56,048 bases of DNA from a virus, in IMG/VR virus record IMGVR_UViG_3300020193_000026, positions 1-56,048 of that record, one strand, 5' to 3'. Position 1 is the first letter of the stretch; each line of letters begins with the position of its first letter. The position numbers were made by a program, and so were the translations under genes. Under the pieces are notes generated by a model. That model made no database searches, was not told where the DNA came from, and saw only the letters and a program-made list of their open reading frames with translations. Positions 6,784 through 49,409 of this stretch are shown here, one piece after another.

Positions 6784-9700
6784 GTGGAAGACATCATCGA
6801 ATTAGATCGACCAGTAAGGGATCTTCAAGAGGTTAAGCCTAGTATCAATCTGATGAAGGCCCTTTCCCCTGCGATTAAGCGTCCGACATTCACGTATAGG
6901 CTCCCTGCAAACTCTAATACACGCAAGAGTGGTGAGGCCTGGTATCCGGCTGAATATGATTTCGTCGATATTGGGATGGCAGAAGACACGGACTCTTTTG
7001 TCTATCAGGCCAACTTCAAGAAGCTTGCGCTAGCCATAAAGGCTGGGTGGGCATTTGTCTCCAGGGATCAGACATCGCTAGATTACATCAAACGACGCAT
7101 TTCCGAGATAGAGATCGCCCAGGGCCAGAGCTTTTGGGCTTTGCAGGTCGAGGTACTGAGCAACCTACTCAGATACCACAATTGCTTCCTGATTAAGGCG
7201 AGAGATATATCGACGTCAAGCGGGAAGGTAAGGAACGTTGACGGCTTCAAACTGAAGCCTATCGCTGGTTACTTCGTAGCTAGCCCAGAAACCATGCTCT
7301 TCCAGATTGGTAAGGACTATCACATTAAGGGCTACAAGCACATTATGCCGGATGGACGTGAGAAGGTATTCGCGCCAGAGGATGTAGTCCATTTCCATAT
7401 CTATAGAAAAACACATCATTTAGCAGGGACTCCATCATGGGTCCCAGTTCTCGATGACATAACCGCTCTTCGCCGCATCGAAGAAAACATCGAGAACTTA
7501 GTTCACCAACACATTCACCCCTTGTTTCAATACAAGGTAGGCACCGAACAAGCGCCAATGAAGCGTTACGAGGATGGCCTTACTGAATGTGACGTAGTCA
7601 GAGCCAAAATTCAGGATATGGCAAATGACGGTATGATCATTACTCCTGAGCGTCATGAGATAAAAGGCCTCGGCTCTGAAAGCCGGGCCTTAAGAGCTGA
7701 GACCTATCTTGAGTACTTTAAGAAGAGGGTGATCTCTGGCGCAGGTTTGTCAGAACTGGATTTCGGCTACGGGGACTGTTATGACGCACTGACAGAGACC
7801 CTCACCGAGACTGGATGGAAGAGACACTGGGAGATAGACCACACAGTAGAGAAGATCGCTACATTCAACCCAGAGACCTCTAAGATTGAATTCCATCTAC
7901 CAAATTACAAATACGAAGCCCAATATGTCGGAGATATGATTCAGTTCAGAGGAAAGCATATCGATATAAAGGTTACCCCGAACCATAAGATGTGGGCTCG
8001 TGCTCGTAATGTTGGAAGCCAATGGCAAAAGGTTGAGGCCCATGAACTCTACCACGGTAAGTGGAGCGAGTTCTATTTGCTAGAGTCAGCAGAATTTGAT
8101 AGCCAGGACATAAACGAACGCTTTACGATTAAAGCAGAAAAGCAGAAGAGGGGCCCCGCACCGACTGCGGTAGACTGCGATCTAGAATCTTTTGCGAAAG
8201 TCTTAGGGTACTTTGTCTCTGAGGGATGTCTTGACAAAGGTCGAGCCCGCAATGGTGCCTACCGAATCAATATTTCACAAAATAGAGGCGAGTCTTTCGA
8301 CAGAATTGTTGAAGCCATCTCTGATTGTGGCCTTAGTTTCAGCACGTACTTTCACCACTCCAGACCAGACGAAGGTCATATAACTATATATGGAAAGACA
8401 TTATATCACTGGTTAGAGCAGCATATCGCCCACGGCGCCCGCAACAAGAATCTGCCACAAATGGTTTTGGGCTGGCCAAAACTCGCTCGCAATGCCTTGC
8501 TCGAGGCTTTGATTGACGGTGATGGAACAGTTGACAAAAACGAGGGTGCGACAAATCGGACCTATTATACGACTAGCTCACAACTAGCTAACGATGTTCA
8601 GGTCCTTGCTCTGTCACTGGGGCTGAAAGCTAAGGTTAAGCTAACGCGACAATCCTCCGAAGCATATGGAGAATCTATCTATCGAGTCCACATCTCCGGC
8701 AGAGCCGGAGAAGAGAATAGCCGTATTGTCACAATGGATATGATCTCCAAGGTCGCATGTGATGAGCCGATCTATTGTTACAACGTCCCCAACCATCTCT
8801 TCCTGACCAGACGAAACGGGAAAGTGACAGTTCAGGGAAATACGAGCAATCGGGCGTGCTATTCGGAAGACACCGAGACGCTAACCGAGAATGGCTGGAA
8901 GCATTATTCGGAGATCTTGCCTGGAGAAAAGATCGCGACATTCAATCCGGCAAACAACCAGCTCGAATACCATGAGCCTGATGGTGGAATCTTCCTATAT
9001 GATTACGAAGGGCCAATGTACCATTTTAAAAACAGGAATGTTGACACATTGGTCACGCCAGATCACGACATGTGGGTCGAACATCGGCTTTGGAAGAGGA
9101 GTGAGTGGACGAAGGTACACGCCGAGGATATCAAATTTGAAAGATTTGGCTTCCGGACAGGTGGTATTGAGTGGGCCGGCGTAGATCCAGGGGACTTCTT
9201 ATTGCCCCATGTTCCCTACGGGCCAAATGTAAAGTGTCCAAACCAGGGGCCCTTCGAAAGAATTGACATATCTGATTGGTTGGAGTTTTTGGGATACTAC
9301 GTCTCTGAGGGCTATTTAGCAAAGGCCAGAAACAAGTGGGCCGTAACCATCAGCCAAAATAGCGTCGTAAATGCCGCAAAAACAGAGAAGATACGAAGGT
9401 GTCTTACGAGATTGCCGTTCAAGTTCAATGAGTACACAGATTCGAATGACCACACAACCCGATTCTGGATACACTGCAAGTCTCTTTACCTATACCTACA
9501 GGAGAATTGTAAAGATCATTCATACCTGAAGCAATTCCCGGAAGAGATCCTTTCGTATTCTGAGGAGTATTTAAGAATCGCCTTTGAGGCTGCCATGGCG
9601 GGTGACGGCACTTCTGACGGAAGAGAGGGTGGGTCAAGCCGAACGTACTATTCGACTTCAGACAATTTGATTGACCAGATGCAAGAAATCGCAATCAAGC

Positions 9701-10908
9701 TGGGATACCGAGCGCATGTATTGCCGGGTGCCAAGTGCAGCCGGGTCTGTATATCTATCGGAGCAGAATCGGAAGTTAATCAGAGCCAAGTCGAAGTCGT
9801 AGACTATAGAGGCAAGGTATATTGCTTTAGGGTCCCCAATCATCTCTTCTTCACACGAAGAAACGGTCGCATCGGAATCCATGGGAACACAGCTGACACC
9901 ATGTCTAAGCTAGCCATCGATAACGTCAAGTTCTATCAACAGTGCATGGCAGATGTGATCAACTTCCAGGTGGTTAGGGAGCTGATGCTGGAAAGCACAT
10001 TCCCATATGACCATTCCGATGATGAACAGCGAGTTGAGTTGCAGTTCAATGAAATCGATCTTGAGTCCCAAATCAAGATGGAAAACCACTTCATGCTTAT
10101 GTACCAGGGGAATACGATTACGGAGACGGAAGCTCGCAGGCACATGGGCAGAGAGCCTTTGAGAGACGACAAGAGAGAAGATACATTCCTGCACAGAATT
10201 GACAAGCCAAGGGTCGAGTGGCAGGTTGAAGCGGATCTCAACAAGGCCAAAGCCCAAGCTGCCAACAAGCAGCAGCCAACCAACCAGCACGGCAAGAAGT
10301 CAGGTCCTACAAAGAGGAAGTCGTCCGTAGAAAGAGACGGTGTCGCGACAGAGGCTTACAACGAGCTGGCAGAGGACATCAGGAGAGCAAGAGGGAGAAC
10401 AGTTAATCTGGGATTCATTAACCAGCTCTTTCTCGCAACAGCAGAGCGGACTAAATCCCTTTTTCAATCCTCAATCGAATCTGCCGTATTCAGAGGATCC
10501 CGCTCTTACCCCCCGTCTTTCGCTCTTCGCCTAGAACTCGAAGCAATCAACAAGCGGATCAGAAGAGACTTTGAAAACGATGTAGATCGCTTATTCAGAG
10601 ATGCTGCTATCGAGACACAAGCGCAATTAATAGAAAAGAAAGCCGACCGTTTGGCAATAGACGTATTAGAATATCGCATGCGATTCATTGAACACACTCT
10701 ACTGCACAAAGCCTATATACTGGGCAAAGTTGCTGCCATGCGTAGCAGTGGCGTCCAGCGAGCAAGAATCAAATCTGACCCAGAGGGTGAAGACTACCAA
10801 ATTTGGCACAATATCGTTATTGATCTGAATGATATCTCACTCGAGAACTTGCCGCCTTACCATCCAAACTGTGAGTGCGACCTAGAACCGGAGCCACTAA
10901 ATGTCTGA
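6784..10908 (+). CDS. Portal protein with two inteins, fused to a Mu F-like domain
   Basis: 1374 aa as encoded, 675 aa after removal of inteins at residues 332-686 and 692-1035. The first 331 residues are portal-like (SFWALQVEVL, the VHFHIYRKTHHLAGTPSW type segment, then a segment ending SELDFGYGD). After splicing the sequence would read GD-TSNRA-TADTMSK, a conserved-looking portal stretch. The C-terminal region ends LPPYHPNCECD. The HPNCxC pattern is the hallmark end of Mu gpF/SPP1 gp7-type minor head proteins, so this looks like a portal-minor head fusion. The start is GTG at 6784 behind a run of five G residues. Its stop overlaps the protease start by 8 bases. It forms the dodecameric DNA gate at the head vertex. 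Confidence 0.92.
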   Translation: MEDIIELDRPVRDLQEVKPSINLMKALSPAIKRPTFTYRLPANSNTRKSGEAWYPAEYDFVDIGMAEDTDSFVYQANFKKLALAIKAGWAFVSRDQTSLDYIKRRISEIEIAQGQSFWALQVEVLSNLLRYHNCFLIKARDISTSSGKVRNVDGFKLKPIAGYFVASPETMLFQIGKDYHIKGYKHIMPDGREKVFAPEDVVHFHIYRKTHHLAGTPSWVPVLDDITALRRIEENIENLVHQHIHPLFQYKVGTEQAPMKRYEDGLTECDVVRAKIQDMANDGMIITPERHEIKGLGSESRALRAETYLEYFKKRVISGAGLSELDFGYGDCYDALTETLTETGWKRHWEIDHTVEKIATFNPETSKIEFHLPNYKYEAQYVGDMIQFRGKHIDIKVTPNHKMWARARNVGSQWQKVEAHELYHGKWSEFYLLESAEFDSQDINERFTIKAEKQKRGPAPTAVDCDLESFAKVLGYFVSEGCLDKGRARNGAYRINISQNRGESFDRIVEAISDCGLSFSTYFHHSRPDEGHITIYGKTLYHWLEQHIAHGARNKNLPQMVLGWPKLARNALLEALIDGDGTVDKNEGATNRTYYTTSSQLANDVQVLALSLGLKAKVKLTRQSSEAYGESIYRVHISGRAGEENSRIVTMDMISKVACDEPIYCYNVPNHLFLTRRNGKVTVQGNTSNRACYSEDTETLTENGWKHYSEILPGEKIATFNPANNQLEYHEPDGGIFLYDYEGPMYHFKNRNVDTLVTPDHDMWVEHRLWKRSEWTKVHAEDIKFERFGFRTGGIEWAGVDPGDFLLPHVPYGPNVKCPNQGPFERIDISDWLEFLGYYVSEGYLAKARNKWAVTISQNSVVNAAKTEKIRRCLTRLPFKFNEYTDSNDHTTRFWIHCKSLYLYLQENCKDHSYLKQFPEEILSYSEEYLRIAFEAAMAGDGTSDGREGGSSRTYYSTSDNLIDQMQEIAIKLGYRAHVLPGAKCSRVCISIGAESEVNQSQVEVVDYRGKVYCFRVPNHLFFTRRNGRIGIHGNTADTMSKLAIDNVKFYQQCMADVINFQVVRELMLESTFPYDHSDDEQRVELQFNEIDLESQIKMENHFMLMYQGNTITETEARRHMGREPLRDDKREDTFLHRIDKPRVEWQVEADLNKAKAQAANKQQPTNQHGKKSGPTKRKSSVERDGVATEAYNELAEDIRRARGRTVNLGFINQLFLATAERTKSLFQSSIESAVFRGSRSYPPSFALRLELEAINKRIRRDFENDVDRLFRDAAIETQAQLIEKKADRLAIDVLEYRMRFIEHTLLHKAYILGKVAAMRSSGVQRARIKSDPEGEDYQIWHNIVIDLNDISLENLPPYHPNCECDLEPEPLNV
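7777..8841 (+). mobile_element. Portal intein 1 (LAGLIDADG type)
   Basis: 355 residues (332-686 of the portal precursor). It starts at Cys in GD|CYDALTETLT and ends VTVQGN| followed by Thr+1. Block B is ITPNHKMWA-like (VTPNHK). The endonuclease motifs are LGYFVSEG and LIDGDGTVD, both retaining an acidic residue. Block F is CYNVPNHLFLTRRNGK. The penultimate residue is Gly instead of the usual His, a variation also seen in the second portal intein. The sequence is clearly related to portal intein 2 (shared ETLTE-GWK and KIATFNP at the start, VPNHLF-TRRNG near the end). Confidence 0.93.
8842..8856 (+). other. Five-residue micro-extein TSNRA between two inteins
   Basis: Fifteen bases encode T-S-N-R-A, the only portal sequence between intein 1 (ending GN) and intein 2 (starting CYS). 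Thr687 must act as the +1 nucleophile for intein 1, and Ala691 is the -1 residue for intein 2. If both inteins splice, the portal reads GD-TSNRA-TADTM. If the N-half of intein 1 pairs with the C-half of intein 2, these five residues would be lost with both inteins. Confidence 0.9.
8857..9888 (+). mobile_element. Portal intein 2 (LAGLIDADG type)
   Basis: 344 residues (692-1035 of the precursor). It starts at Cys in RA|CYSEDTETLT and ends IGIHGN| with Thr+1. Block B is VTPDHDMWV. The endonuclease motifs are LGYYVSEGYL and AAMAGDGTSD. The second keeps the Asp, although its preceding positions are less typical. Block F is CFRVPNHLFFTRRNGR. The same Gly replaces the penultimate His as in intein 1. 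The two inteins are homologous along their length but clearly diverged, so this is not a recent duplication. Confidence 0.93.
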
Positions 10909-23760: not shown

Positions 23761-26649
23761 ATGGCAGATAAGTTCCCAAATATCCCAGGTATCACAGTAG
23801 GTATCCGTGACGGCAGCCTTCGTCCAGAAGCAGCTCCGGCCGGCCCAACTGTTGTCGTACTCGGCACAGCAAAGAAGGGTCCTTCTAAGAATGCAGCAAG
23901 AACCATTTCTGGTAGCTCTGCTCTATCAAGATTCGGATTAAGTGGCACCTTAGGACGCGGCCTCGTCGAGGTCTTCCAGGGGGGAGGCGATAACGCTCTA
24001 GCGTTCCGTGTTCTCGCTACAAAGGCTAAGCTTTCACATATCGGCGACATCACAGGCGAAGGTGGCTATGTCGTAGAGACTGTAGGTGAGGGCTCTGACG
24101 CTCTCGCCAAGATCAGTGTCCTTTACGATAACGCAGACGACATCCTGAAGGTCTTTGATGTTGCTTCGAGCCAGCTTGTGTATTCGAATGACCCAAATCT
24201 TCCCGTCAACCTCGGCGTTGTTGAGGTAACGGGCGAGAAGGCCGTCGACAATCCTTCTGGTAGCATCGGAAAGGCAATCAAGCTTCGCACCGACGAGAGC
24301 CTCCAGCGTGCGACACGTTCGGGAGATGATGTCCTCACCATCGTTGCAGGCAGCAATCTGTCCCTGTTGAGATTCGACGAAACGTCGAATCCTTGCAAGG
24401 TCCAGGTTCTCAGCGGCCTGAGTGGCGCCACGAAGAAGATCGCTGTTCATTTGGCAACTGCGGCAGAATTGGCTGCTAGCGCCTACAACAACGTCGCCGG
24501 TACCCTCACAGCAAATGCTGCCGGTCAGTCAGACATCGACGGAACTGCAGTGGTGGTGAATAACAGAATCTTGGTTAAGAACCAGGCAGCTCCGGCCCAG
24601 AATGGTATCTACACTGTGACGACTGTCGGGGCACCCGGGGTTGCCCAGGTTCTGACAAGAGCTCCTGACGCTGCTGCTGCTGACGAATTCTCTGAAGGAA
24701 TGTATGTCGAGGTTACCGCCGGTGCCACGAACAGCGGAAACGGCTACTGTCTGACAACCGACGCACCAGATGACGGGTATGTCCTCGGGGTGACAGCTCT
24801 GACGTTCGCCGAAATTGACCTAGACCCAGACAACTGGCTGGTCGAAGCCAATGTGATCGCAGTCAATACTGCCAATGGTACGTTCGACATTGATAGTACC
24901 GTAAGCGCAACTTCATTCCCAGCAATCCCGCACAAGGTTCGTTTCATCAGCAGCATTAGCGGTCAACGTGCCGACAAGATCCTGCACAACAGGCTATTCC
25001 TTCTTGAGGCAGACGCAGACAATGCTGGAGTCCAGCCGCTGATTGTGCTTCCAGGTTCGGACTTCAACGGCCTTCCAAAGGTCAGCAATGATTTTGGTTT
25101 CGCTGTCGATGTTGAAGATTCGGAAGGTGTTCTGGCTCTAGAAGAGGTGTCCCCTGCAAAGATGAACATGTTCGAGGCGATGGAAGACGCCTTCTTGGCA
25201 CTGGAGGCAACTGAGTTCTCTGTCATCGTCATACCTGGCGTGTACGCAAACGATCCGGCACTCGACGGCCTGACTTCGGGCGCAACAGCACTTCCAAGTG
25301 CCGCTCTCAGCGGGATCGATAAGGTCAATACAATCGCAGGTTTTGCTGATAGAGTAGACGTAACATTCGATGTCGGCGCTCGTAATGCCGCAGTTGTCGT
25401 TCTTGAGACTGGTGGACGCGGTGCCTTCTGGGCAGTATTTAACACTCTTCAGGGGGCAGGCTTCGGTGAAAACCTTGTTGAGGGCGAGTTGGTTCGTACG
25501 GCTCGTGTCTTGAACTGGGCAGAAGATGCGGATGATGAGACTGTCCTTAGACTCTTCTTTGACCGCGATCTGGGCTTCTCTGTTGATGACAACGGTGTCG
25601 TGGTCGGAAGCAATGAGCCAGAGATGACTGTATATCAGACAGACCTTCTCTTCTACCATCGTGCAGTCGAGGTCGACGGTAAGCTTCGTCACATGTGGTA
25701 TCCTGAGACTTCAGATGAAGACGGCTTTACGTACAATGAGGTCAACTTCGCTTATCGTCTCGCTAGATTCTGTCAGGAGATGACCGAGAACGAGATTGCC
25801 ATCAACGGTGTCATCGGTGTTCGTCCTCCGACGAACCACTTCAGCTCCGCTGCTTTGGCGCAGTGGATCGGAAAGTCGCCAACCTTCTTCGAGGGAGACG
25901 TTAACGTGAATGGCACGGGTCTGTTGGGCAACAAGTTTGTCGCCGGCCTATTGATGGAGGACAACTCGCAGTTCGACCCTGGCTACAAGGCAACTGAGTC
26001 CGGAGAACTCGATGACGAAGAGATCTTGCTCGATGCCAACAACTTTGAAGTTGATATGGGCAAGTTCTTGAGCACGGTCGCAACATGGCCAATCTTGAGC
26101 AATGAGGCAGACATCTCGGGTCTAGGCTACATCAACTCTGGAGCTGCAGTCTACGCAGGCTTACTTGCCGGACTTCCTTCCTGGAGAGGCGCAACAGCTA
26201 AGTTTGTCGGTGGCCGTGGAATCCGACTCGCAATGAAGCTCGCAAAGCGTCATCAAGATTCTTTAACAAAAGCGCGCTATGTTGTGTTTGATCAGCGGCC
26301 AGAGGGTGTAATTGTAGTAGACGCACCCTCTTCTGCTCTGCCAACCTCTGACTTCACACGCAATATGACAGTGAGGTTGGTTTCTGAGGCAGTCAAGATT
26401 TGTCGCGATGTCTCTCGTCCGTTCCTTGGCGACCCACTCAGCGGGATCAAGAAGGCCGGTCTAGAGACAGCCCTTAAGAAGGGTCTGTCGGATCTGCAGA
26501 GAGCTTCTGGTGGCGCCCTCGAGGCATTCGACCTGAGCCTTACACAGACTAAACTGGATAAGATTCGCGGCACTGCAAAGTTAACCCTAACACTACAGGT
26601 CATCAATGAGCTACGTAAGATCTCTGTAGACGTTGCTCTTACTCAGTAA
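23761..26649 (+). CDS. Tail sheath protein with an inserted fibre-type domain
   Basis: 962 aa, contractile sheath subunit. The N-terminus (FPNIPGITVGIRDGSLR, then VVLGTAKKGP) and the C-terminal half (EIAINGVIGVRPPTNHFS, the RGIRLAMKLAKRHQ region, the final TAKLTLTLQVINELRKISVDVAL) are typical of myovirus sheaths. Residues about 224-357 are an insertion (VHLATAAELAAS, ILVKNQAAPAQNGIYTVT, LTRAPDAAA) homologous to residues about 89-215 of the fibre protein at 17600. It would decorate the outside of the sheath. The size exceeds the usual 480-660 aa of sheaths partly because of this insert. It starts behind AAGGAG and shares the codon style of the capsid gene. Confidence 0.92.
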   Translation: MADKFPNIPGITVGIRDGSLRPEAAPAGPTVVVLGTAKKGPSKNAARTISGSSALSRFGLSGTLGRGLVEVFQGGGDNALAFRVLATKAKLSHIGDITGEGGYVVETVGEGSDALAKISVLYDNADDILKVFDVASSQLVYSNDPNLPVNLGVVEVTGEKAVDNPSGSIGKAIKLRTDESLQRATRSGDDVLTIVAGSNLSLLRFDETSNPCKVQVLSGLSGATKKIAVHLATAAELAASAYNNVAGTLTANAAGQSDIDGTAVVVNNRILVKNQAAPAQNGIYTVTTVGAPGVAQVLTRAPDAAAADEFSEGMYVEVTAGATNSGNGYCLTTDAPDDGYVLGVTALTFAEIDLDPDNWLVEANVIAVNTANGTFDIDSTVSATSFPAIPHKVRFISSISGQRADKILHNRLFLLEADADNAGVQPLIVLPGSDFNGLPKVSNDFGFAVDVEDSEGVLALEEVSPAKMNMFEAMEDAFLALEATEFSVIVIPGVYANDPALDGLTSGATALPSAALSGIDKVNTIAGFADRVDVTFDVGARNAAVVVLETGGRGAFWAVFNTLQGAGFGENLVEGELVRTARVLNWAEDADDETVLRLFFDRDLGFSVDDNGVVVGSNEPEMTVYQTDLLFYHRAVEVDGKLRHMWYPETSDEDGFTYNEVNFAYRLARFCQEMTENEIAINGVIGVRPPTNHFSSAALAQWIGKSPTFFEGDVNVNGTGLLGNKFVAGLLMEDNSQFDPGYKATESGELDDEEILLDANNFEVDMGKFLSTVATWPILSNEADISGLGYINSGAAVYAGLLAGLPSWRGATAKFVGGRGIRLAMKLAKRHQDSLTKARYVVFDQRPEGVIVVDAPSSALPTSDFTRNMTVRLVSEAVKICRDVSRPFLGDPLSGIKKAGLETALKKGLSDLQRASGGALEAFDLSLTQTKLDKIRGTAKLTLTLQVINELRKISVDVALTQ

Positions 26650-30919: not shown

Positions 30920-33900
30920 ATGCCTAAAGACACCCCTATTCCAGGAGTCGATCGTCGTCCATATATTGAAGTCACCGACCACAAACAGGCCGACTACAAT
31001 AGATGGAGTAATGCGCTCAAATACGCTGCTTTCGGTTCTATCGCAATAGTGGGTGTCCGCTGGAGTTCAACTGCCATCAAATTTCAGATAGATCCTGCGA
31101 AGTTCAGATATCTGTCTGACGGTCTCAATAAACCCGGGGTGACCCCCTGGTATGAGGTTCGAGGAAAGACGCTTGATCCCGTAACAGGCAAGATCGAAGC
31201 CACACTTGGCGATGTCTTTCTGGAGCTGACCAAACGTGCTGAGGAAATCGCTGGCGGCATCCCTCGTACATTCGACGTTCATAGCTTCCTCAGTCGACGA
31301 ATTACAACAACGCCCACTTCAAGTCTCCGCATTAATAAAGAGCACCTAGAAGGGGCAGAGAGCCACTACCAGGCCCTCTTGGGCAGGAAGTTGACTCCAG
31401 AGGAGTCCGTCTTTGGATTTCAGGTCGGACCTTTTTCAAAGGACGACCTCGAGGCATATGTCAGGGCCCGCGCATCAAGAGAATCTTTAACGCTCTCAGA
31501 TGCCGAGGTGATGAAAGAAGTTGACGAGATGATTGCCGAGGGGCGCGCCGCTCCAGGAAAAGCCCCGGGCATGTTCTCCGTCCATCCCGACGGAACACTC
31601 AAAGAGCTAGTGGTCCCAGATGTTAAAATTGCAGAGCGTTTGTGGAATCCAGATGGACCTATCGATCCATCTACTGGGCTTCCGAAGTACAGACACGTAA
31701 TGAGAAGCACGGACGTTCTTACGGAGTCGATGGGCGGGAAACCGATCAGTCACACGAATGAACTCCCGTACATAGTATACAAAACGCCCGAATCAACCAA
31801 GCTTACAGGTACAACAAGGGAGCTTGTAGAGGCCTTCATTGACCCAAAGATCATAGAAGGTGCAGCCGATAAGGTAATGGGAAACACAGCCAGGGCTGTC
31901 GCTCAGGAGGGAGAGGTCTTTGCCAAGAAGATGTCAGAGAGATATCTTCGTATGTTGGATCAACCATTAGAGGCCATTGAAGACCTATTCAACAAGCAAG
32001 ATCTGTTTGCTGGGGTCCGTAAGACGAAGAGCTATTCTTTCTTGAAGAACCTATTCGGTACGGGCGGCGACTACTCAGGCACGACGATGGATCTGTGGGG
32101 AAAGCACTTAAAGCGCATCGCCCCACTAGCACTTGGCCTAACAGCTGCATATGAGCTAGGCAGCCGAGTCACAGAACTTGTCGCAGATAAGTCACTGGCT
32201 CAGGTCGGGGGCTCTGCGATAGGGGCGACACAAAGGATCTATGCGAGCATCTCCGACAAACTCGGGCTAACGACACTTAACAAAGCCCAGGAGCGAGAGG
32301 CAGAGGGGTCCCATAGATTACTTGGGGTGTTAGCGTTCCCAATGGCTGGTGCTTTGACCGGCGCCACTGTCGCCTCTTTTATGAATCCGGTTGTTGCTGA
32401 TGCAGGAAAGACCGGCTGGTTAACGGCAAGAGAGGCAGTCCATGAACTCCCAGACTCTTTAGGGGCCCTCAAGAAAGATCTCCCCATAGTCGGGGACCTA
32501 AGTAAGCCGATGACTCGAGCCAAGAAGTTTGCGGTTATCGGGGCTGCGATTGGAGGAGCTCTGAGTCTTCCGTTCTTGCTTGGATCCTTGGGATCTAACA
32601 AGACCTATGACGAGACGGTCGCAGAGCAGCGTGGGGAGACTGAGGTCGCGGTGCGCAAGGGTGCATTCTGGGAAATGGGTCGTACAGACATCGAAGGAGA
32701 GCAGACCCAATACTACCGTCCAAATTGGTTCGCGCGTCTTATGGATGCCCCAGCGGATGAGTTGCAGTTTGGCGACTACGCAGACAAGCCTTTTACTAGA
32801 TTACTGAAAGGGGTTATAGACCCATACTGGAGAGAAAAGGAACTCTACTATCAGCGCCCCTATCCGATCACAGGACCTGACACGAGTGGGTTCGGTCCAT
32901 TGGGGACCCTCTGGGGCATGACCATCGGACGCGTTATTAAGCCGCCGAAGATTATGCATGCGGACGAAGTCTCTCCAGGCGGTCGCGAAGGTGTATCCGC
33001 TGGAGAAACCGTCCAGTTTGGGAGAAACGTTTCTGAGGCCCCTAGCGAGGCATTAGGGGGCATTGGAGCCCAGGCTGTTGGCTCACCATACGACCAGTCG
33101 TTTCTTGCCGGGGAAATGGCCTACAAGGCCACGGAAGCCTCTGGCTTGCCAGGTTTCGTCTTCTCTGCTGTGAAGAAGGCGATAACCGGAACCGGTGACT
33201 TTGGAGTCGACGACCCGGTCTTAGCAAGCTTTGCTGATGTTGGATCGATGCGAGATAGGTTCTGGGACTCAAATGTTGGCGGTGGCTTTACAACGACAGA
33301 GGCACTCAGGCGCTTCATCCCGAAAGAACGATTCCAATTGGAGAAGGTGAACCCAATCCGCAATGAGATGCCATCGTGGATGCCTGGTCCGGGAGGCTAC
33401 GTTGATTTTACCCACGGAGATCCGTACCAAGCAATTCCGGAGGGTGAGTATCGCTTGCCGGGGAGTGGTTATGAATCCCGATTTAAGGAGCTTGCCGGTG
33501 TAAATCCTGAGGATTATCCCGACATTCATAAGTACAGGATCCTAGGAGACGTCGCCCCTTACTCTCAAGAGTTCAAGGATATCTCTCGAAAGGTTGAAAG
33601 TCTTGCACAGTCGAATCGTCTTTCTGAGAAAGACAGGACTCTGTATGAAGGAACGAAAGCAGAATTCCGAGAAAGAGAGGACAAGGTCAAGACCAGAGAA
33701 GACCCCGACTCCTTCGTCGGAAAGTATTGGGCAGCCATTACGAAAGCGGGAAGGATGAACCCCGTCGAACACCTTCTCCCCATCTCCCCTGTTCACAAGT
33801 TTGCCGGTTCAGTAGATATGATAACAGAGTACGAGGACCGGAACCTTTACAGCACAAGATCCCCAGGATGGGACAGCCCGATAGAGGATTTTGTCAAACC

Positions 33901-34828
33901 CGCATTGTACAATGCTGCTCACATCTTTGGCTATGAAGGGGTGCCAGCCAGCGTCCAGGAGAAGAGAGACCTCACCGAGTATTTCGATAAGCTAGAGTAC
34001 ATGAAGTACAAGCGCCTTGAAGCCAACGCAAGAGGACAGGGGGAGGGTAGAGCGGCGTTCGCTTTTGCCAGAAAGGCCGAGTACACAATGTTCGGCGCAG
34101 ATCCATATACGGACATGGACACGGTTAAGAAGATACTCCCTCGAGAAGAGCTCCCATTCTTTGAGAAGTTTGTCAGTGCAGACTCCCCAGAAGAGAAAGG
34201 GCGAATCCTCGAGATGGTCCCTCGCTACACTCGAAAGTTTTATACCGCTCAATGGCAAAAGCAGATCTATGCAGGCTTAGCCGCCAAAGGGGACCTGACA
34301 TCTGATGAGCAGTCAGCAGTTATGGCGATTGAGGCATCTAGGGCGACAGAAGGAGAGGCGACGAACACGAACACATGGAACGAGTATATTGGTAAAGTAG
34401 AAGGGGGAAAGGTTAGAAGCAATACGTTCCCCGACTACATAAGAGCGAAGAGGCTGGAGTCTTACTTTGACGAATCGCCGTTCGACGCACCAAAGGCCGA
34501 CTGGATTGGCTATCACCCTGGGGTGGCAATGGATGACGTGAAGCTGAAGGTTGTTCAGGCTCAGGGGCTCGACTATCACGACTTTGATCTGTGGGAAAAC
34601 GATGAGCGCATGGCCGCAAGGAAGCCATATTTGGACGAAGCCGCCAACGACCTAATGAGTCCATCGATTATGCGAGAGGACATTTTGCAGTCATTGACTG
34701 CACTGAGGCTTAACGATTTAAATGTGGAAATTGTTCCAACAACAGGAGATCAAACAAGAATCACTCTTGACGTTGGGACAAACAGAAGGAAAGAACTAGA
34801 CAGGGAAATGAAGAGGTATAATAGGTAA
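30920..34828 (+). CDS. Probable tape measure protein
   Basis: 1302 aa. This is the first of three giant genes after the chaperones, the expected tape-measure position. Gly/Ala-rich apolar segments lie at about residues 33-49, 396-418, 467-489 and 534-558, of the kind found in tape measures that insert into the host membrane during ejection. The other parts are long, hydrophilic and mixed. A conserved tape-measure signature is not visible. The alternative is an ejected virion protein, with the 1851-aa neighbour acting as tape measure. The stop overlaps the next ATG by one base. Confidence 0.62.
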   Translation: MPKDTPIPGVDRRPYIEVTDHKQADYNRWSNALKYAAFGSIAIVGVRWSSTAIKFQIDPAKFRYLSDGLNKPGVTPWYEVRGKTLDPVTGKIEATLGDVFLELTKRAEEIAGGIPRTFDVHSFLSRRITTTPTSSLRINKEHLEGAESHYQALLGRKLTPEESVFGFQVGPFSKDDLEAYVRARASRESLTLSDAEVMKEVDEMIAEGRAAPGKAPGMFSVHPDGTLKELVVPDVKIAERLWNPDGPIDPSTGLPKYRHVMRSTDVLTESMGGKPISHTNELPYIVYKTPESTKLTGTTRELVEAFIDPKIIEGAADKVMGNTARAVAQEGEVFAKKMSERYLRMLDQPLEAIEDLFNKQDLFAGVRKTKSYSFLKNLFGTGGDYSGTTMDLWGKHLKRIAPLALGLTAAYELGSRVTELVADKSLAQVGGSAIGATQRIYASISDKLGLTTLNKAQEREAEGSHRLLGVLAFPMAGALTGATVASFMNPVVADAGKTGWLTAREAVHELPDSLGALKKDLPIVGDLSKPMTRAKKFAVIGAAIGGALSLPFLLGSLGSNKTYDETVAEQRGETEVAVRKGAFWEMGRTDIEGEQTQYYRPNWFARLMDAPADELQFGDYADKPFTRLLKGVIDPYWREKELYYQRPYPITGPDTSGFGPLGTLWGMTIGRVIKPPKIMHADEVSPGGREGVSAGETVQFGRNVSEAPSEALGGIGAQAVGSPYDQSFLAGEMAYKATEASGLPGFVFSAVKKAITGTGDFGVDDPVLASFADVGSMRDRFWDSNVGGGFTTTEALRRFIPKERFQLEKVNPIRNEMPSWMPGPGGYVDFTHGDPYQAIPEGEYRLPGSGYESRFKELAGVNPEDYPDIHKYRILGDVAPYSQEFKDISRKVESLAQSNRLSEKDRTLYEGTKAEFREREDKVKTREDPDSFVGKYWAAITKAGRMNPVEHLLPISPVHKFAGSVDMITEYEDRNLYSTRSPGWDSPIEDFVKPALYNAAHIFGYEGVPASVQEKRDLTEYFDKLEYMKYKRLEANARGQGEGRAAFAFARKAEYTMFGADPYTDMDTVKKILPREELPFFEKFVSADSPEEKGRILEMVPRYTRKFYTAQWQKQIYAGLAAKGDLTSDEQSAVMAIEASRATEGEATNTNTWNEYIGKVEGGKVRSNTFPDYIRAKRLESYFDESPFDAPKADWIGYHPGVAMDDVKLKVVQAQGLDYHDFDLWENDERMAARKPYLDEAANDLMSPSIMREDILQSLTALRLNDLNVEIVPTTGDQTRITLDVGTNRRKELDREMKRYNR

Positions 34829-37800
34829 TGGGAGACTTTTTTGGTGATTATGTAGCACCCGGAATACTCTTGACAGGTGCAGGCGTAACAGCATACCGCA
34901 CATACAAAGATATCTCTGCGAAGGGAACCATGACCGCACCATGGCGTATCCAGAAGCAGTCATCAGCCCTCTATTCAAAGATCAAAGGACTGCACGAAAA
35001 CAGGTATAGGCCAACTGCAGCCTCTATCGCAGAACTATTCTTTCCAGATTTTATCAATATCTTTCCTGGGTCTACCCCAGAGACCCGCACGGCCGGGCAG
35101 GAGATGATGGGGAGGATCCGATCATCCGCCGTCAGCGGACTTATATCCAACCATCAGCTCAAAGCAAGAGCAATTGAGCTGGGTATCACACCAGAAACAA
35201 TGGGCGGACTTACTCCTGACAAGATTGCAGCCCTACTCGGGGCCACTCCTGACAACCCATATGGGATCGATGCATATAGAGAGTATCTGTCAAGAGTCGC
35301 CAGAACCAACGACCTCGGAAGGCTAAAGACAGGGGGTGAAGGGGCTCTTAAGTCTTTAGTCGAAGCTAACCAGAGTGTTGCAAGAAATAGTGGTCTTGGA
35401 GAGACACTGAGTGCCATGAAGTCGAAGGGGGCGTTTTCTGGAAGCTCGACCAAGGCTGGTTTCGAGAACGTCCAGTATACTCAGCGAAAGCTCATGGCAG
35501 GGCTGCCAGGTCGGGACGACCTTGTCATGAAGGTTCATCAGGTCTATGAACGGGTCCGGGCACTTGCTGCTGAGAATCCTAAGGCAGGGCTCTCAATGAG
35601 CCTAACAACCTTACAAGAAGCCGGAGAAACAATCTATACAGGATATACGATTAGATCTGGGAAGAAGGTTTTGTCCCTTCCCTTCGAGAACGCAAATGGG
35701 ATAGTTCGGACAGGGCCGGGAGGCAGAACTCGAAGTGTGGCAAAGTGGGCGCTCGCCGAGAATATTGAAAGCATCCTTGGGACATTCACTGATGTTAGTC
35801 AGATCGCTCGCCGGGCAGATGTTGCCATCACGGACTACATGCTGAATGGAGGCTTACAAGATTTCGTAAAGGGGACACTATCAAACAGCCACCTGACTAA
35901 GCAGCTGTGGAGTAAGAACAAGGATGATCTAGGAAAACTCTTTGTTCCTACTGTTGCTAACGAAGCATCAGTCCGCCGTCAGCGAGGGATCTTGTCAACA
36001 GCTCGCTCTGCTGTAAACCCCGCACTCTCCCCTGCCCAGATCGAAGTCCTCAAGAGACGACTGATAGACATTGGGCACCCGGCTGTTGCGGGGCTGAGCG
36101 CTAATCAAGTTACGGGTGGTAATATATTTATTGGGGACTATGTTTACGGCTCGTCTCCGATTGGACCAAGTTCAGACGCCAAGGCTGTGGCGCAGAGCAT
36201 GAGAGAAGGCGTCTTCTCCGGGCTCGGAAGTAAGAATCGCAGCACCCCGGCAATTTTTGGCAAAAAGCAGAAAGCGATGGGGGACATAAGAGCCAGGCTC
36301 AGAGTTATGTCTGTCCCCGAGTCTGTGGCTAATGCTTTCTTATCTCTGGCAGGAAGAGCAGATGTCCACCTGCACGAAGACGAGCTGATGCTACTGGACA
36401 ACAATCTTCCATACACAAAGTTCCATTCAACAGGAACCATCGGCGAGAATGCGGTCATGTCCGAGAAGATCGCCAAGATAGGAAAAGCAGAGACCCCACA
36501 GATGCAACGGCTTCAGACGATGCTGCGCACAGGCCTCACCGCAGACGGGATTGGTTGGTTGGAAGCGGAAAGAGAGGGATTGATACAGCTTGCCAATTCT
36601 CCGGGAATAGACGATGCCAAGAGGATCGCATACATTGACGAGGCACACGGCATCAATGAGATGCTTGAGACGATCCGGTTTAAGCCGGGAGAGTTTATTG
36701 GAATGACAGAAGACGGGGTTATGCTCAATGTTCCGAGCAATGCTGGCACTTACACAATCAGGAGTATGACTGATGATGGGGTTAAAGGGCTAAAGCTTGA
36801 GGCACTAATCGACAGAAAGCTCGGTCTTGGGGACAAGGTCTTCGGCACGAAGGGCATTATCAAGGAGGAGGCAGCAGCCCGTTTTGGTCATAAGATGGGG
36901 GCTATGTGGGAGTATCTAAGAGAGACCCCTGAGATGATTGAGGCTCTGGAGAAGGGGGACCACGAGAAGATGAAGGGGGTACTGGAGCCGACCTATAAAC
37001 AGATTGTGGCTGCTGAAAAGGCCGCTCTTGGGAGGGGTGAGGACCTGCCTGACCTCTGGAAGGTTATCGACAGTGAACAGTGGCGGGCGGCTACAAGAGA
37101 GACGCGCGGGGCTCAACTCCTGTCGGTACAGGGGACAAAGAAGATCGGTGATGCGAACATGGGGGCACTAGTCCAAGGGCTAATGGAAGAGCTACACGCT
37201 GAACTCCCTGGCATAGGTAAGGCCGGGGTGGAGCTACTCGACAAGGCTCGTTGGCGAGACACGACCTTGGACGAGTTTCTTCAAATGTCCCCAGAAGATC
37301 AGCTCGTTCGCAAGAGCCAAATAGAAGCACTGCAGACTTCGAAAGCGCTTGGTCTCGAGGAAAAAGAATTTGCCTCTTTAACAAAGCGAAGAGAGGGGAT
37401 ACTGAGCCTGGGCTTTGACGACAGCAACGGCGCCGTCACTATCATCGACGATGGCTCCCATAAGATGACAGACAGATTTGACAAGGTTGTAGAACTAACG
37501 GTCCAGTCCCCGGGACGACGAGGGAGGTGGAGCTCTGAGAGATTTTGGGTGGACCTGGAAAATAACAAGGACTTCTTCAGTACTTTGCCAGAGACATTCA
37601 GACAGGAAGTTGGGTCCTTGTCGGGGATCAAGGATAAGAGAGTCCGGATGGGAAAGTCGATCCGTCTATACAAAGAAGCGATGGAAAGCGGACTTTTTGC
37701 AACCGAGACTGGCCGCAAGGCACGCATTGCCGCTCTCGAACCACAGCTTCAGTTTGGGGCTTTGAACAGAGACGTGACTCCGCACGGCAGTCCAATCCTT

Positions 37801-40383
37801 ACTGGTGGTGCTGGCAGAGAAGGATCGTTTTCTCTGCAAACACTACTGCACACTCAAGCACAAAGAGGCGCTGTCGCAGAGGCAGGACTTGAGGCCATGG
37901 GCCGAATGTCTGGCAACACCCGTGACGAGGCCATGGAAATTTATAAGAGAAACGCATACTTCGATAGAACTTCAGATTATGCTGGTGCCATAAAGGTCTC
38001 GGACATGAGCAAGGTGGCCCCGAGTACGATTGAAGGCCTCTTCTCCCCTAGCCAAGAGACACGAGACGCAGCTTTTGGGGAGATGCGCAAGACCTTTAAT
38101 GTAAAGGGCGACCTTGTCTTCGACACCGGGAATGCTGAGAAGAGGTTTATCTACCATCCTCAAGGTCTGAGCACACACACGGGAGGATATACTGTTGCGT
38201 CGAATATGCACATTCCGACAGAGATGGACGCCGCACTGCAAGGGATCCTCGAAGGGGGAAGGCTTGGGAACAGGCTTGACCAGGGCCTGCTCGGATCGTA
38301 TGCCCAATCACTGGCAGATATAACTTTGACAAGAGATCAGAATGTTTCGAGGGCGTTCTCAGGGCACGTCCAGGGGTCGATGCGCATGCAGGCTCGCTCT
38401 GGCGCTAACGCAGACTTCTTTGAGTTCTTGGCAACGGATAAGAATTACAGTCACAAGGTCGGAATAAAAGAGAGTAACTTAATAGAGATGATGGACTCTG
38501 CAGGTATCGCGGGAGACGCCGCAGACGAAATGGTCAATGAACTCAAGGGCGGGAGATTGGCGGGACTTATACATCGTGCTCCAGACACAGAATTGCACCG
38601 TATTACAGGGGCAACGGCATTTAGCCTAGACGAAGCTTTGGGGAAGTACGCAAATTCTATGATGGATGGTCAAAAGAAGAACATTGATCTTCTCCACTGG
38701 CTTCGAGAGATGAGCAAGTCAAAGCATGATCAGGTGACGACTAGAATTGTAGAAGACGCAGCCAAGTCTCAGGAACTTCTGGAGAAGATTAACGACTTAA
38801 GCGCTACCGTGAAAAAGAGGTACAAGCCTTCGCTTCTCAGAAGGAAGTCAAAGGAGTTTATTCAAGAGCTTCAGACTAGGAAAAACAACGCAAGGGCGGC
38901 CCTTGACCAGATCTTGGCCGATAACGGCATCAATCTTGAGGGGAAGGCTGGCCCAGAAGGAGGTTGGAACAACTTCTTCAGGAAGCGGAACGCGACTAAT
39001 GAGAGACGATTTCTAGAGGAGGCTGTCCGTGACGTCTATAAAACAAAACATAAGGGGGCTGCCATGTGGCTTCCTAAGTCTTTTGAAGGAGTACTTGGGG
39101 CCGACTTCGACGACGACGCAATAAACTTCTTTCTCGTCAAAAACGAGAATACAAGATACGACTTACGAGAGAGGGTCTTGCATTCCGAGAAGCTGAAGGC
39201 TGAGTGGGGTAATCAATCCGCGAGTGGTGCTCCAGAGGAGGCGCTTGTCGAGAGATTGCGTCCACGGAACGCAACAATTGATCAGCTACATGGAGAAGAG
39301 GACTTCCTCTATAATGTGAGACAGAAAGAGCTGTATGCCAACCTGAAGAGCAAAGATCCGTCCGTGATCACCCCAGAGGCTTTGGACCCATCGAGTGAAG
39401 TTTGGAAGATGAGACAGCGAGCCCAGAATCAGATGGCCATGATCGAGAAGGCTCAAATCGGCTCTATGAGCAATGCTACAGATTTCGCACGAGCGATGGC
39501 TAGAGCCAGCGGCGCAGCCTCTCCAACGGCTCACGCCAATTCTAGACTCTTCGCCGAGATGTTGCTGGGCATTATGCCAGAAAGCATCTTGAAAGTTCGA
39601 CAGGTCCCTATCAACCAAGTCGAAGCTGTTGGTAACTATGCGAAGAGCATGGAAGATGCCCTTCGCGGTGAGCACGGAGCGGGTGCAGGGGCTGTGGCAG
39701 AATTCCGTGAGAACTTCAGACGTCTTCACGGAGTGAAGTCCGGGAGCATAGTGGACAAGATCGCTTCTGACGAAAATATTAAGGCCATCTTGGAAGCTGG
39801 AGTCATGGCCAAGAAGAACAGGCACGAGTATAGCCTTCTAACTGCTCTAAAGAATACAGAGGTGACAGACGCAACGAGGCAAGCAGCCATGAATGCTGCA
39901 AGAGAATTCGGTGGAACAACAATGCAACATGAACTCTACCGAGATGCAACCAGGGGAATAGTAGAGGAAGTTACTCCGCTGCAGAGGAATTTGAAGAACA
40001 CCGCATCGTCATTCTCCGAAGCTTATGATATTATGCTAAAGCACAAGAAGCCACTGGTTCTTGGTGCTGGGTTGGCCATTGCAACGTCGATGCTTCTGGG
40101 CTCACCAGGCAGTATCTCCTCAGAGGAGGCAGACGCTGCTGGCGCCAGGCACTCCACGGGCTCGCCTACGACCCCACCAACGGACATGGGGCACTCTGCA
40201 AGAGTCGCTACAAATACCGGTAGGGCAGTCAGAATCAGAGGAAGTTCTAATGGGGATGTTGACCCGAGTGTAATTGCAGCAAAGCTGGGAGAGCGGTTCC
40301 CCGGTTCTAGTGTGAACTTCACAGTGAACGACTATCGTGAGCGGATTAACCAAGAATATATTAGGAAGAAGTTAGACAGATGA
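34828..40383 (+). CDS. Putative virion-associated two-barrel RNA polymerase
   Basis: 1851 aa. Three segments, in order, fit a single-chain RNA polymerase of the double-psi-barrel class. (1) Residues 663-678: RKLGLGDK-x4-KG-II, like the beta-subunit lysine motif RKLxVGDK...NKGVI, with K670 and K675. (2) Residues 1422-1435: VLGADFDDDAINFF, keeping the three metal-binding Asp of DFDGD (D1426, D1428, D1430) between apolar strands. (3) Residues 1541-1555: KAQIGSMSNATDFAR, like the conserved helix after DFDGD in two-barrel polymerases. The 750-residue spacing is close to that across a joined beta-beta-prime pair. The N-terminus and residues 1741-1758 are membrane-like. It lies between tape measure and hub and overlaps the hub by 4 bases. 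DFDxD is described for crAss-like phage virion RNA polymerase. The polymerase call is inference from motifs. Confidence 0.7.
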   Translation: MGDFFGDYVAPGILLTGAGVTAYRTYKDISAKGTMTAPWRIQKQSSALYSKIKGLHENRYRPTAASIAELFFPDFINIFPGSTPETRTAGQEMMGRIRSSAVSGLISNHQLKARAIELGITPETMGGLTPDKIAALLGATPDNPYGIDAYREYLSRVARTNDLGRLKTGGEGALKSLVEANQSVARNSGLGETLSAMKSKGAFSGSSTKAGFENVQYTQRKLMAGLPGRDDLVMKVHQVYERVRALAAENPKAGLSMSLTTLQEAGETIYTGYTIRSGKKVLSLPFENANGIVRTGPGGRTRSVAKWALAENIESILGTFTDVSQIARRADVAITDYMLNGGLQDFVKGTLSNSHLTKQLWSKNKDDLGKLFVPTVANEASVRRQRGILSTARSAVNPALSPAQIEVLKRRLIDIGHPAVAGLSANQVTGGNIFIGDYVYGSSPIGPSSDAKAVAQSMREGVFSGLGSKNRSTPAIFGKKQKAMGDIRARLRVMSVPESVANAFLSLAGRADVHLHEDELMLLDNNLPYTKFHSTGTIGENAVMSEKIAKIGKAETPQMQRLQTMLRTGLTADGIGWLEAEREGLIQLANSPGIDDAKRIAYIDEAHGINEMLETIRFKPGEFIGMTEDGVMLNVPSNAGTYTIRSMTDDGVKGLKLEALIDRKLGLGDKVFGTKGIIKEEAAARFGHKMGAMWEYLRETPEMIEALEKGDHEKMKGVLEPTYKQIVAAEKAALGRGEDLPDLWKVIDSEQWRAATRETRGAQLLSVQGTKKIGDANMGALVQGLMEELHAELPGIGKAGVELLDKARWRDTTLDEFLQMSPEDQLVRKSQIEALQTSKALGLEEKEFASLTKRREGILSLGFDDSNGAVTIIDDGSHKMTDRFDKVVELTVQSPGRRGRWSSERFWVDLENNKDFFSTLPETFRQEVGSLSGIKDKRVRMGKSIRLYKEAMESGLFATETGRKARIAALEPQLQFGALNRDVTPHGSPILTGGAGREGSFSLQTLLHTQAQRGAVAEAGLEAMGRMSGNTRDEAMEIYKRNAYFDRTSDYAGAIKVSDMSKVAPSTIEGLFSPSQETRDAAFGEMRKTFNVKGDLVFDTGNAEKRFIYHPQGLSTHTGGYTVASNMHIPTEMDAALQGILEGGRLGNRLDQGLLGSYAQSLADITLTRDQNVSRAFSGHVQGSMRMQARSGANADFFEFLATDKNYSHKVGIKESNLIEMMDSAGIAGDAADEMVNELKGGRLAGLIHRAPDTELHRITGATAFSLDEALGKYANSMMDGQKKNIDLLHWLREMSKSKHDQVTTRIVEDAAKSQELLEKINDLSATVKKRYKPSLLRRKSKEFIQELQTRKNNARAALDQILADNGINLEGKAGPEGGWNNFFRKRNATNERRFLEEAVRDVYKTKHKGAAMWLPKSFEGVLGADFDDDAINFFLVKNENTRYDLRERVLHSEKLKAEWGNQSASGAPEEALVERLRPRNATIDQLHGEEDFLYNVRQKELYANLKSKDPSVITPEALDPSSEVWKMRQRAQNQMAMIEKAQIGSMSNATDFARAMARASGAASPTAHANSRLFAEMLLGIMPESILKVRQVPINQVEAVGNYAKSMEDALRGEHGAGAGAVAEFRENFRRLHGVKSGSIVDKIASDENIKAILEAGVMAKKNRHEYSLLTALKNTEVTDATRQAAMNAAREFGGTTMQHELYRDATRGIVEEVTPLQRNLKNTASSFSEAYDIMLKHKKPLVLGAGLAIATSMLLGSPGSISSEEADAAGARHSTGSPTTPPTDMGHSARVATNTGRAVRIRGSSNGDVDPSVIAAKLGERFPGSSVNFTVNDYRERINQEYIRKKLDR

Positions 40384-48191: not shown

Positions 48192-49409
48192 ATGGCAAAT
48201 ACTATTACAGAAAACGCAGATCAGATTCTTGGCCGAGCCATCGACCAGCTTAAGGCGAACTCCCAGATCACTAGATTTACCCCAGGAGCAAAGGCTCGCA
48301 CCCTTTTGGGAATTCTCTCTTCAGAGCTAGAGAGGTTAGAGGACACACTCACCTCTTCTTTGGTGTTAGGTTTAGTTAACGGAGCTAGTGGCATTTACTT
48401 AGACTTCCTCGGAGAGCTGGTTGGGCTTCAGCGAACCCCCCGCTCTGCGGCCGGGGTCTCGGTGGTAGATCAGACAATAGTCGTTTATGTAGACGATCCA
48501 CTCACTTTTGGAGATTTGAATGGCGGCCGCCCAATTATCATTCCTCCTGGAACTGTCATCTCATCTGCAGACGGAACGATCCGATACAGTACCCTAACCC
48601 GTCTCGTTCTCTCCCCAAACGGGAGAGAACAGTTTGTAGGTGCCAGCTCTCTCCGCTTTGGGGCTGGAGGTAATGTCGCCAAGGATGTTCTGACAAAGAT
48701 CAATTTTGAATCCTACGAAACTTTCCCCGTCACGCAACTAAAGGTACGAAATCTTTCTTCTATTGAGAACGGGCAGGAGCCGGACGCAGACAGCTTTTAC
48801 CGACATAAGATAACGAATGCCCTTCTAGCAGCAGAGACCGGAAATTTGACAGCTGTTAGGCTGGCGGCCCTCACAGTTCAATCGGTAGCAGACGTCATCA
48901 TCCTTCCCCTGTTTAGAGGGGTCGGAACTGCAGACCTGATTCTCGACACAAAAGATGGCACGGTCTCTAATGTTCTACTAGAGAGCGTAACAAGATCTGT
49001 GTCCTTTGCTAAGTCCCTAGGAATGTACATACTGACCCGAGCTCCACAGTTGGTTGGGCTGGAGATTGCTCTTGATGTAAAGTATGTAAGAGGGGTGAGC
49101 ATTCCGGACAAACAACAGATTAACAGCAATATCCGTCAGTCTGTAATGGACTTAGTTGCAACCACCCACATGGGGCAGACCCTGAATCTGAACACAATTT
49201 CAAATGCGATTATGAATAGTGACAAAAGGATTGCAGACATCGGGGCCCCAGGAAGACCTCTCTCGGAAGTTATCCTTTGGAGGGATTCGTTAGTTACAGG
49301 AAGCCGACGGCCGGTCCTGGTCAGGGATGCCAACCTCCCGCTCCTAATAGACGAACGTTTAATATTAGAGGGAACCCCCAACGTCGCGATTAGGGTTATA
49401 GAAAAATGA
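48192..49409 (+). CDS. Baseplate J-like wedge protein
   Basis: 405 aa. N-terminal helical region (TRFTPGAKARTLLGILSSELERLEDTLTSSLVLGLVNGASGIYLDFLGELVGLQR), typical of baseplate J-family wedge proteins. Next are a central strand domain (IIIPPGTVISSADGTIRYSTLTRLVLSPNG) and a C-terminal helical/strand part. Equivalent to P2 gpJ/T4 gp6, it forms the wedge ring that triggers contraction. It overlaps the next gene by ATGA. The order gp25-like then J-like is a solid marker of this module. Confidence 0.9.
   Translation: MANTITENADQILGRAIDQLKANSQITRFTPGAKARTLLGILSSELERLEDTLTSSLVLGLVNGASGIYLDFLGELVGLQRTPRSAAGVSVVDQTIVVYVDDPLTFGDLNGGRPIIIPPGTVISSADGTIRYSTLTRLVLSPNGREQFVGASSLRFGAGGNVAKDVLTKINFESYETFPVTQLKVRNLSSIENGQEPDADSFYRHKITNALLAAETGNLTAVRLAALTVQSVADVIILPLFRGVGTADLILDTKDGTVSNVLLESVTRSVSFAKSLGMYILTRAPQLVGLEIALDVKYVRGVSIPDKQQINSNIRQSVMDLVATTHMGQTLNLNTISNAIMNSDKRIADIGAPGRPLSEVILWRDSLVTGSRRPVLVRDANLPLLIDERLILEGTPNVAIRVIEK

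Follow-up and report, generated by a model that had tools for sequence, protein, structure and literature searches.

A putative two-barrel RNA polymerase encoded between tail genes of a contractile-tailed phage and of its relatives

In the crAss-like phage phi14:2, gp66 is reported to be a virion RNA polymerase that is injected and transcribes the early genes (Drobysheva et al., Nature, as cited in PMC7886860). In the Thermus phage P23-45, gp96 is a polymerase fused to the tape measure; its presence in virions has been shown, and transcription of the first genes during DNA entry is the role proposed for it. Beyond the DxDxD region, many polymerase families are without significant similarity in sequence (PMC10770324). 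Phage 0305phi8-36 has a putative polymerase, gp99 (PMC2147016; see also PMC7824862). Its orf146 precedes the hub gene and has been taken for the tape measure, mainly on account of the length of the tail (PMC2147016).

Here we analysed a viral DNA of 56,048 nucleotides (the window, meaning the whole stretch). One of its genes, placed among virion genes and flanked by the presumed tape measure and the hub, very probably encodes a single-chain RNA polymerase of the cellular type (two double-psi barrels) that would be a component of the contractile tail and be expelled with the DNA; catalysis, packaging and injection are the parts that we infer. In cellular enzymes, the beta subunit carries ILVGKxTPKGE and then GDKxAGRHGNKG, and the beta-prime subunit NRAPTLHR and then NADFDGD. 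Residues 619–630 of the window protein resemble, in our reading, the first of these beta motifs, and its HRAPDTELHR is taken to be the positional equivalent of NRAPTLHR. Upstream of DFDDD, the protein reads GDKVFGTKGII around K670 and K675.

The extent and length of the open reading frame and the positions of K670, K675 and D1426/D1428/D1430, as given in an earlier note on this DNA, were all verified, and so were K1541, G1545 and N1549 (Table 1). The DFDDD sequence is the sole DxDxD of the protein, and by composition 0.28 such motifs are expected in a protein of 1851 residues, so the motif alone is unremarkable. The gene is an open reading frame separate from the one upstream and is not a tape-measure fusion. 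The earlier note had also described a contractile-tail setting. The contractile nature of the tail was borne out by the sheath, the Baseplate_J protein and the hub encoded in the window; the tape measure is presumed only from the position and size of its gene. Elsewhere in the window, the large terminase gene (899–4021) contains an intein, which carries a LAGLIDADG endonuclease (PF14528, PF14890), and a 1374-residue open reading frame (6784–10908) with a LAGLIDADG domain (E 3e-19) and a weak intein splicing signal is probably a second intein-bearing gene.

Table 1. Candidate polymerase gene, its motifs and the neighbouring tail genes in the window.
Feature	Position	Strand	Basis
Putative virion two-barrel RNA polymerase, 1851 aa, ATG start	34828..40383	+	ORF, 36 distinct relatives, structure models
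Polymerase core as modelled, residues 475-1662	36250..39813	+	Alignment A7, AlphaFold2 model
Barrel B start, residues 619-630, KPGEFIGMTEDG	36682..36717	+	G625 and G630, each 36/37
Lysine motif GDKVFGTKGIIK of barrel B, with K670, K675 (and K679)	36829..36864	+	Alignments
HRAPDTELHR with R1250 and P1252	38572..38601	+	37-sequence alignment (34/37 each)
DFDDD, residues 1426-1430, putative metal-binding triad of barrel A	39103..39117	+	Three Asp, 37/37
EKAQIGSMSN, residues 1540-1549, helical region after the catalytic loop	39445..39474	+	Alignment, model
Hydrophobic segment near residues 1741-1761; G1746 and P1760 conserved	40048..40110	+	Alignment and sequence
C-terminal segment with VNFTVNDYRERINQEYIRKKL, resembling the C-terminus of the upstream gene	40312..40380	+	Comparison of C-termini
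Presumed tape measure protein, 1302 aa, ending in TRITLDVGTNRRKELDREMKRYNR	30920..34828	+	Position, size; PHROG 794, E 0.5
Baseplate hub / tail lysin, 2200 aa	40380..46982	+	Matches in KLEB27-3, MTATph1, ME3
Tail sheath	23761..26649	+	PHROG 16991, E 3e-50
Baseplate J-like protein	48192..49409	+	PF04865, E 4e-15

Searches with the putative polymerase against Pfam, PHROGs and PDB sequences gave no match, and neither did tblastn against phage records nor a scan of viral contigs. The collection of relatives therefore started from the adjacent hub gene, whose product matches the hub/lysin of Bacillus phage KLEB27-3, Moorella phage MTATph1 and Acinetobacter phage ME3. The gene directly before the hub carries GGDHDQD in ME3 and KADYDGD in KLEB27-3, where its product (gp034) is annotated as "structural protein". 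The KLEB27-3 protein led in turn to phage-like plasmids of 200–240 kb from Cytobacillus, Bacillus and Paenibacillus, the homologs of which carry GDFDGD, EDYDGD, ADSDGD and GDADGD at the equivalent place. Alignments of the hub, and one of the putative polymerase itself, served as queries against viral contigs and yielded 36 distinct relatives from metagenomic phages. Their gene is nearly always directly 5' of the hub and, in nearly all of them, between the presumed tape measure and the hub; the setting described in the earlier note is not peculiar to the window phage and is conserved across a large phage lineage. Pairwise similarity of the window protein reached 44, 29 and 24% with three relatives (L014, L018 and L015, respectively), with weaker C-terminal matches to further groups. 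Scans of genome contigs for hosts found none. Profile searches of the PDB with three family alignments (A3, A4 and A8) retrieved no polymerase and no curated family matched the family above its cut-off; the proven polymerases gp66 of phi14:2 and gp96 of P23-45 do not match any RNA polymerase family in Pfam either.

Conservation was counted in an alignment of 37 sequences, the window protein and the 36 relatives. D1426, D1428 and D1430 were its only fully invariant columns (37/37), and DxDxD was present at the aligned position in 36/36 relatives, 369–496 residues from the C-terminus, with the residues between the Asp varying freely (F, Y, K, H, T, M, L, V, D, A, G and others). Next came G625 and G630 (36/37), K675, R1250 and P1252 (34/37) and K670 (27/37). 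Free variation of the Asp or Lys positions among homologs had been named beforehand as an argument against a polymerase; the Asp did not vary and K675 varied little, K670 being the less conserved of the two Lys. Across the family the lysine motif reads KxF...K, mostly KxFGxxK. In alignment A8 the two lysines (K267/K272 there) are conserved in at least 90%, with a few changes from K to R, and one alignment placed the second lysine at K679 instead. The Asp triad was also the sole invariant set in alignments A7–A10, barring Met1 and single Gly or Arg columns; these alignments include a different sampling with the ME3 and Bacillales proteins. Outside the motifs the sequence diverges very fast. The order GxxxxG, K..K, RxP and DxDxD presumably parallels that of the cellular motifs, beta followed by beta-prime.

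Structure prediction with AlphaFold2 of the window fragment 475–1662 gave a pLDDT of 67 and a pTM of 0.49, the RxP and DxDxD regions being well predicted and the K670/K675 loop having a pLDDT below 50. All 50 of the 50 PDB matches listed for this model were RNA polymerase entries (best E 0.025). A compact relative (L041) was modelled with a pLDDT of 83.6 and a pTM of 0.83, and a Foldseek search of the PDB with it gave 54 matches at E ≤ 1e-3, the best 50 of which were all RNA polymerase entries (best E 1.3e-4, probability up to 1.00), the non-virion polymerases of phiKZ and AR9 included. Whole-chain TM-scores to beta-prime were low (0.10–0.15) because only part of each chain aligns, and the matches are thus local. 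In a viral library, an unnamed protein (E 2.7e-10) headed the matches of the L041 model together with two ME3 proteins that are uncharacterised, and the named ones below them were mostly RNA polymerase subunits of both the beta-prime and the beta type. One uncharacterised ME3 protein, of 798 residues (UniProt A0A172Q0S6), matched the model at E 2.3e-5; it is possibly the non-virion polymerase of ME3 or a part of ME3_36. In L041, K267/K272 fall in a six-strand group (219–278), and R696/P698 with D752/754/756 in another (689–762). The two separate strand clusters and the RNA polymerase matches of this relative are consistent with the two facing barrels proposed in the earlier note; the window protein is less certain in this respect, its lysine loop having been modelled at low confidence. 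We infer that the window protein folds like L041 in this loop, and equally that the enzyme chooses promoters. The RNA polymerase reading as a whole is supported by motifs, conservation and predicted fold.

At sequence level, affinities with known families were faint. Pfam Rpb1 domain 2 (PF00623) matches KLEB27-3 gp034 from RYPT to DYDGD with 20.2 bits, below the cut-off of 25.3 (E 7e-5 in the genome search, 0.002 for the fragment against all Pfam), and it had no match in the window protein or in the 17 metagenomic phage records tested, which may be fragments or diverged. Similarly, PF05183 (YonO/QDE-1-like) had no match in the window protein or in 18 such records, to which the same applies. 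Comparison by hhalign of the family with phi14:2 gp66 and with P23-45 gp96 and gp64 gave nothing significant beyond DxDxD, in agreement with what has been reported for polymerase families (PMC10770324). The score with gp66 was no better than that of shuffled controls; the affinity with crAss gp66 suggested at the outset did not hold, as the window protein is not detectably closer to gp66 than to any other protein and has no significant profile match to it. Since there was no sequence match to gp66 or gp96, the family is, on this evidence, separate from both.

The presumed tape measure and the putative polymerase often end in a similar short motif, as in the window (VNFTVNDYRERI versus ITLDVGTNRRKEL), and in the window polymerase a hydrophobic segment precedes it. 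This similarity of the C-termini suggests a common docking site or partner in the tail. In the mechanism that we propose, barrel B (about residues 620–680) would supply K670 and K675, whereas R1250, the arginine of RxP, and D1426/D1428/D1430, which would bind Mg2+, would come from barrel A. The protein would be assembled into the tail together with the tape measure, probably by means of the tape-measure-like C-terminal motif. By analogy with the known systems, it would then be expelled into the cell with the phage DNA, where it may transcribe the first-entering genes before or instead of the host RNA polymerase. Phages of this family thus probably inject their own transcription enzyme along with their DNA.

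Other explanations were considered. An unrelated tail protein in which DxDxD arose by chance or forms a Ca2+-binding loop would fit the expected frequency of the motif and the lack of family matches for the window protein. However, the triad is invariant, the K, R and P motifs stand in the right order and two separate models match RNA polymerases, so this reading is largely refuted and we give it hardly any credit; a chance motif in particular was rejected because of the conservation across the 37 sequences. The polymerase fold could also survive as a catalytically inactive relic with a structural role, either plugging the tail or acting as a second tape measure. The location of the gene in the tail module, the C-terminus resembling that of the neighbouring gene, the very fast divergence outside the motifs and the tape-measure assignment of 0305phi8-36 orf146, which occupies this position (PMC2147016), are all in its favour. 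Nevertheless, a relic is not expected to keep exactly three Asp in 37 divergent sequences while the intervening residues vary, and we regard it as improbable.

A two-barrel polymerase of other chemistry, namely a tail-carried DNA polymerase, primase or repair synthase, is unlikely too, if somewhat less so than a relic. It is favoured by archaeal PolD, a two-barrel enzyme that makes DNA (PMC10770324), and by the exonuclease of some members, which would then act in proofreading or end processing. In the N-terminal part of one member (L033:4534-9993), residues 234–389 match a 3'-5' exonuclease (PF01612, E 4e-27); weaker RNase_H_2 / DNA_pol_B_exo2 signals were found at the N-termini of Bacillales members (L009, L010 and L007), and DEDD-type motifs were seen by eye, with weak Pfam support, in the B. 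licheniformis and Paenibacillus members. On the other hand, most members, the window protein included, lack the exonuclease or gave no signal for it, and the Foldseek matches listed are RNA polymerases. To our knowledge, the phage two-barrel polymerases characterised so far all make RNA. As a separate observation, CDS0027 of Moorella phage MTATph1 (L003:4985-8914), located between the tail genes and the hub, has an RNase_T exonuclease domain (E 5e-5) and lacks DxDxD; the exonuclease has possibly been kept there and the polymerase lost.

Returning to the putative virion RNA polymerase, several phage-plasmids encode both a member of the family and a YonO-like polymerase. A PF05183-matching protein is present elsewhere in the Cytobacillus, B. 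licheniformis and B. velezensis phage-plasmids (above the cut-off in two of the three), and in a Paenibacillus plasmid a pattern search gave a protein with GGADNDGD. This second two-barrel polymerase lies away from the tail genes in the Bacillales phage-plasmids concerned (L091, L093, L094 and L098; motifs GGADFDGD, AGADHDGD and GGADNDGD). The PF05183 polymerase corresponds to gp99 of 0305phi8-36. In the same phage, orf146 may be a member of the tail-encoded family, on the basis of synteny with the ME3 annotation notes only.

The data support a family that is new and widespread within a known kind of enzyme. A polymerase gene in such a tail setting was not found described in the literature searched, which covers few subscription papers, so its novelty is uncertain. 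We lean slightly towards a broader proposal, in which a broad lineage of contractile-tailed phages shares a new family of RNA polymerases residing in the tail lumen. These would be loaded by means of a tape-measure-like docking peptide, and in some members fusion to a 3'-5' exonuclease would make an injected machine of polymerase and nuclease. The family may extend to orf146 of 0305phi8-36, which would then be accompanied by a separate YonO-like non-virion polymerase. If this proposal is true, injected cellular-type RNA polymerases extend beyond the crAss-like, phiKZ-like and Thermus P23-45-like phages and would be an ancestral trait of a large and poorly studied lineage of myoviruses. They would explain how transcription could begin in these phages without depending on the host. 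The 0305phi8-36 group would have a virion polymerase paired with a non-virion one, and the family would provide a rapidly evolving set of two-barrel enzymes whose catalytic residues alone stay constant. As the lineage includes, besides phage-plasmids of about 200 kb from Bacillales, the cultivable Acinetobacter phage ME3 and Bacillus phage KLEB27-3, the idea is testable at once.

With respect to the known systems, the polymerases of AR9 and phiKZ belong to the two-barrel phage class and are among the structural matches, but they consist of several subunits and come from a different lineage. The YonO-like gp99 of 0305phi8-36 is a two-barrel single-chain polymerase, as the window protein is predicted to be, and occurs in the same broad phage lineage; however, its gene belongs to the non-structural right arm and, unlike the window family, gp99 matches PF05183. 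The virion protein gp66 of phi14:2 is large and single-chain and combines two barrels, which are predicted for the window protein, with DFDxD and RxP motifs in the order seen there, but it belongs to a different phage group and genome setting, the window gene being flanked by the presumed tape measure and the hub of a contractile tail. Finally, P23-45 gp96 resembles the window protein in the tie to the tail or tape measure, in a core of about 800 residues and in the two barrels, which in the window protein are predicted. It has DFDGD, and an RNP motif where the window family has RHP, only the DxDxD stretch aligns and the P23-45 tail is non-contractile. In P23-45 the tape measure has the polymerase as its N-terminal part, whereas the putative polymerase of the window phage is encoded separately and has a hydrophobic segment of its own and a C-terminal motif similar to that of the presumed tape measure.
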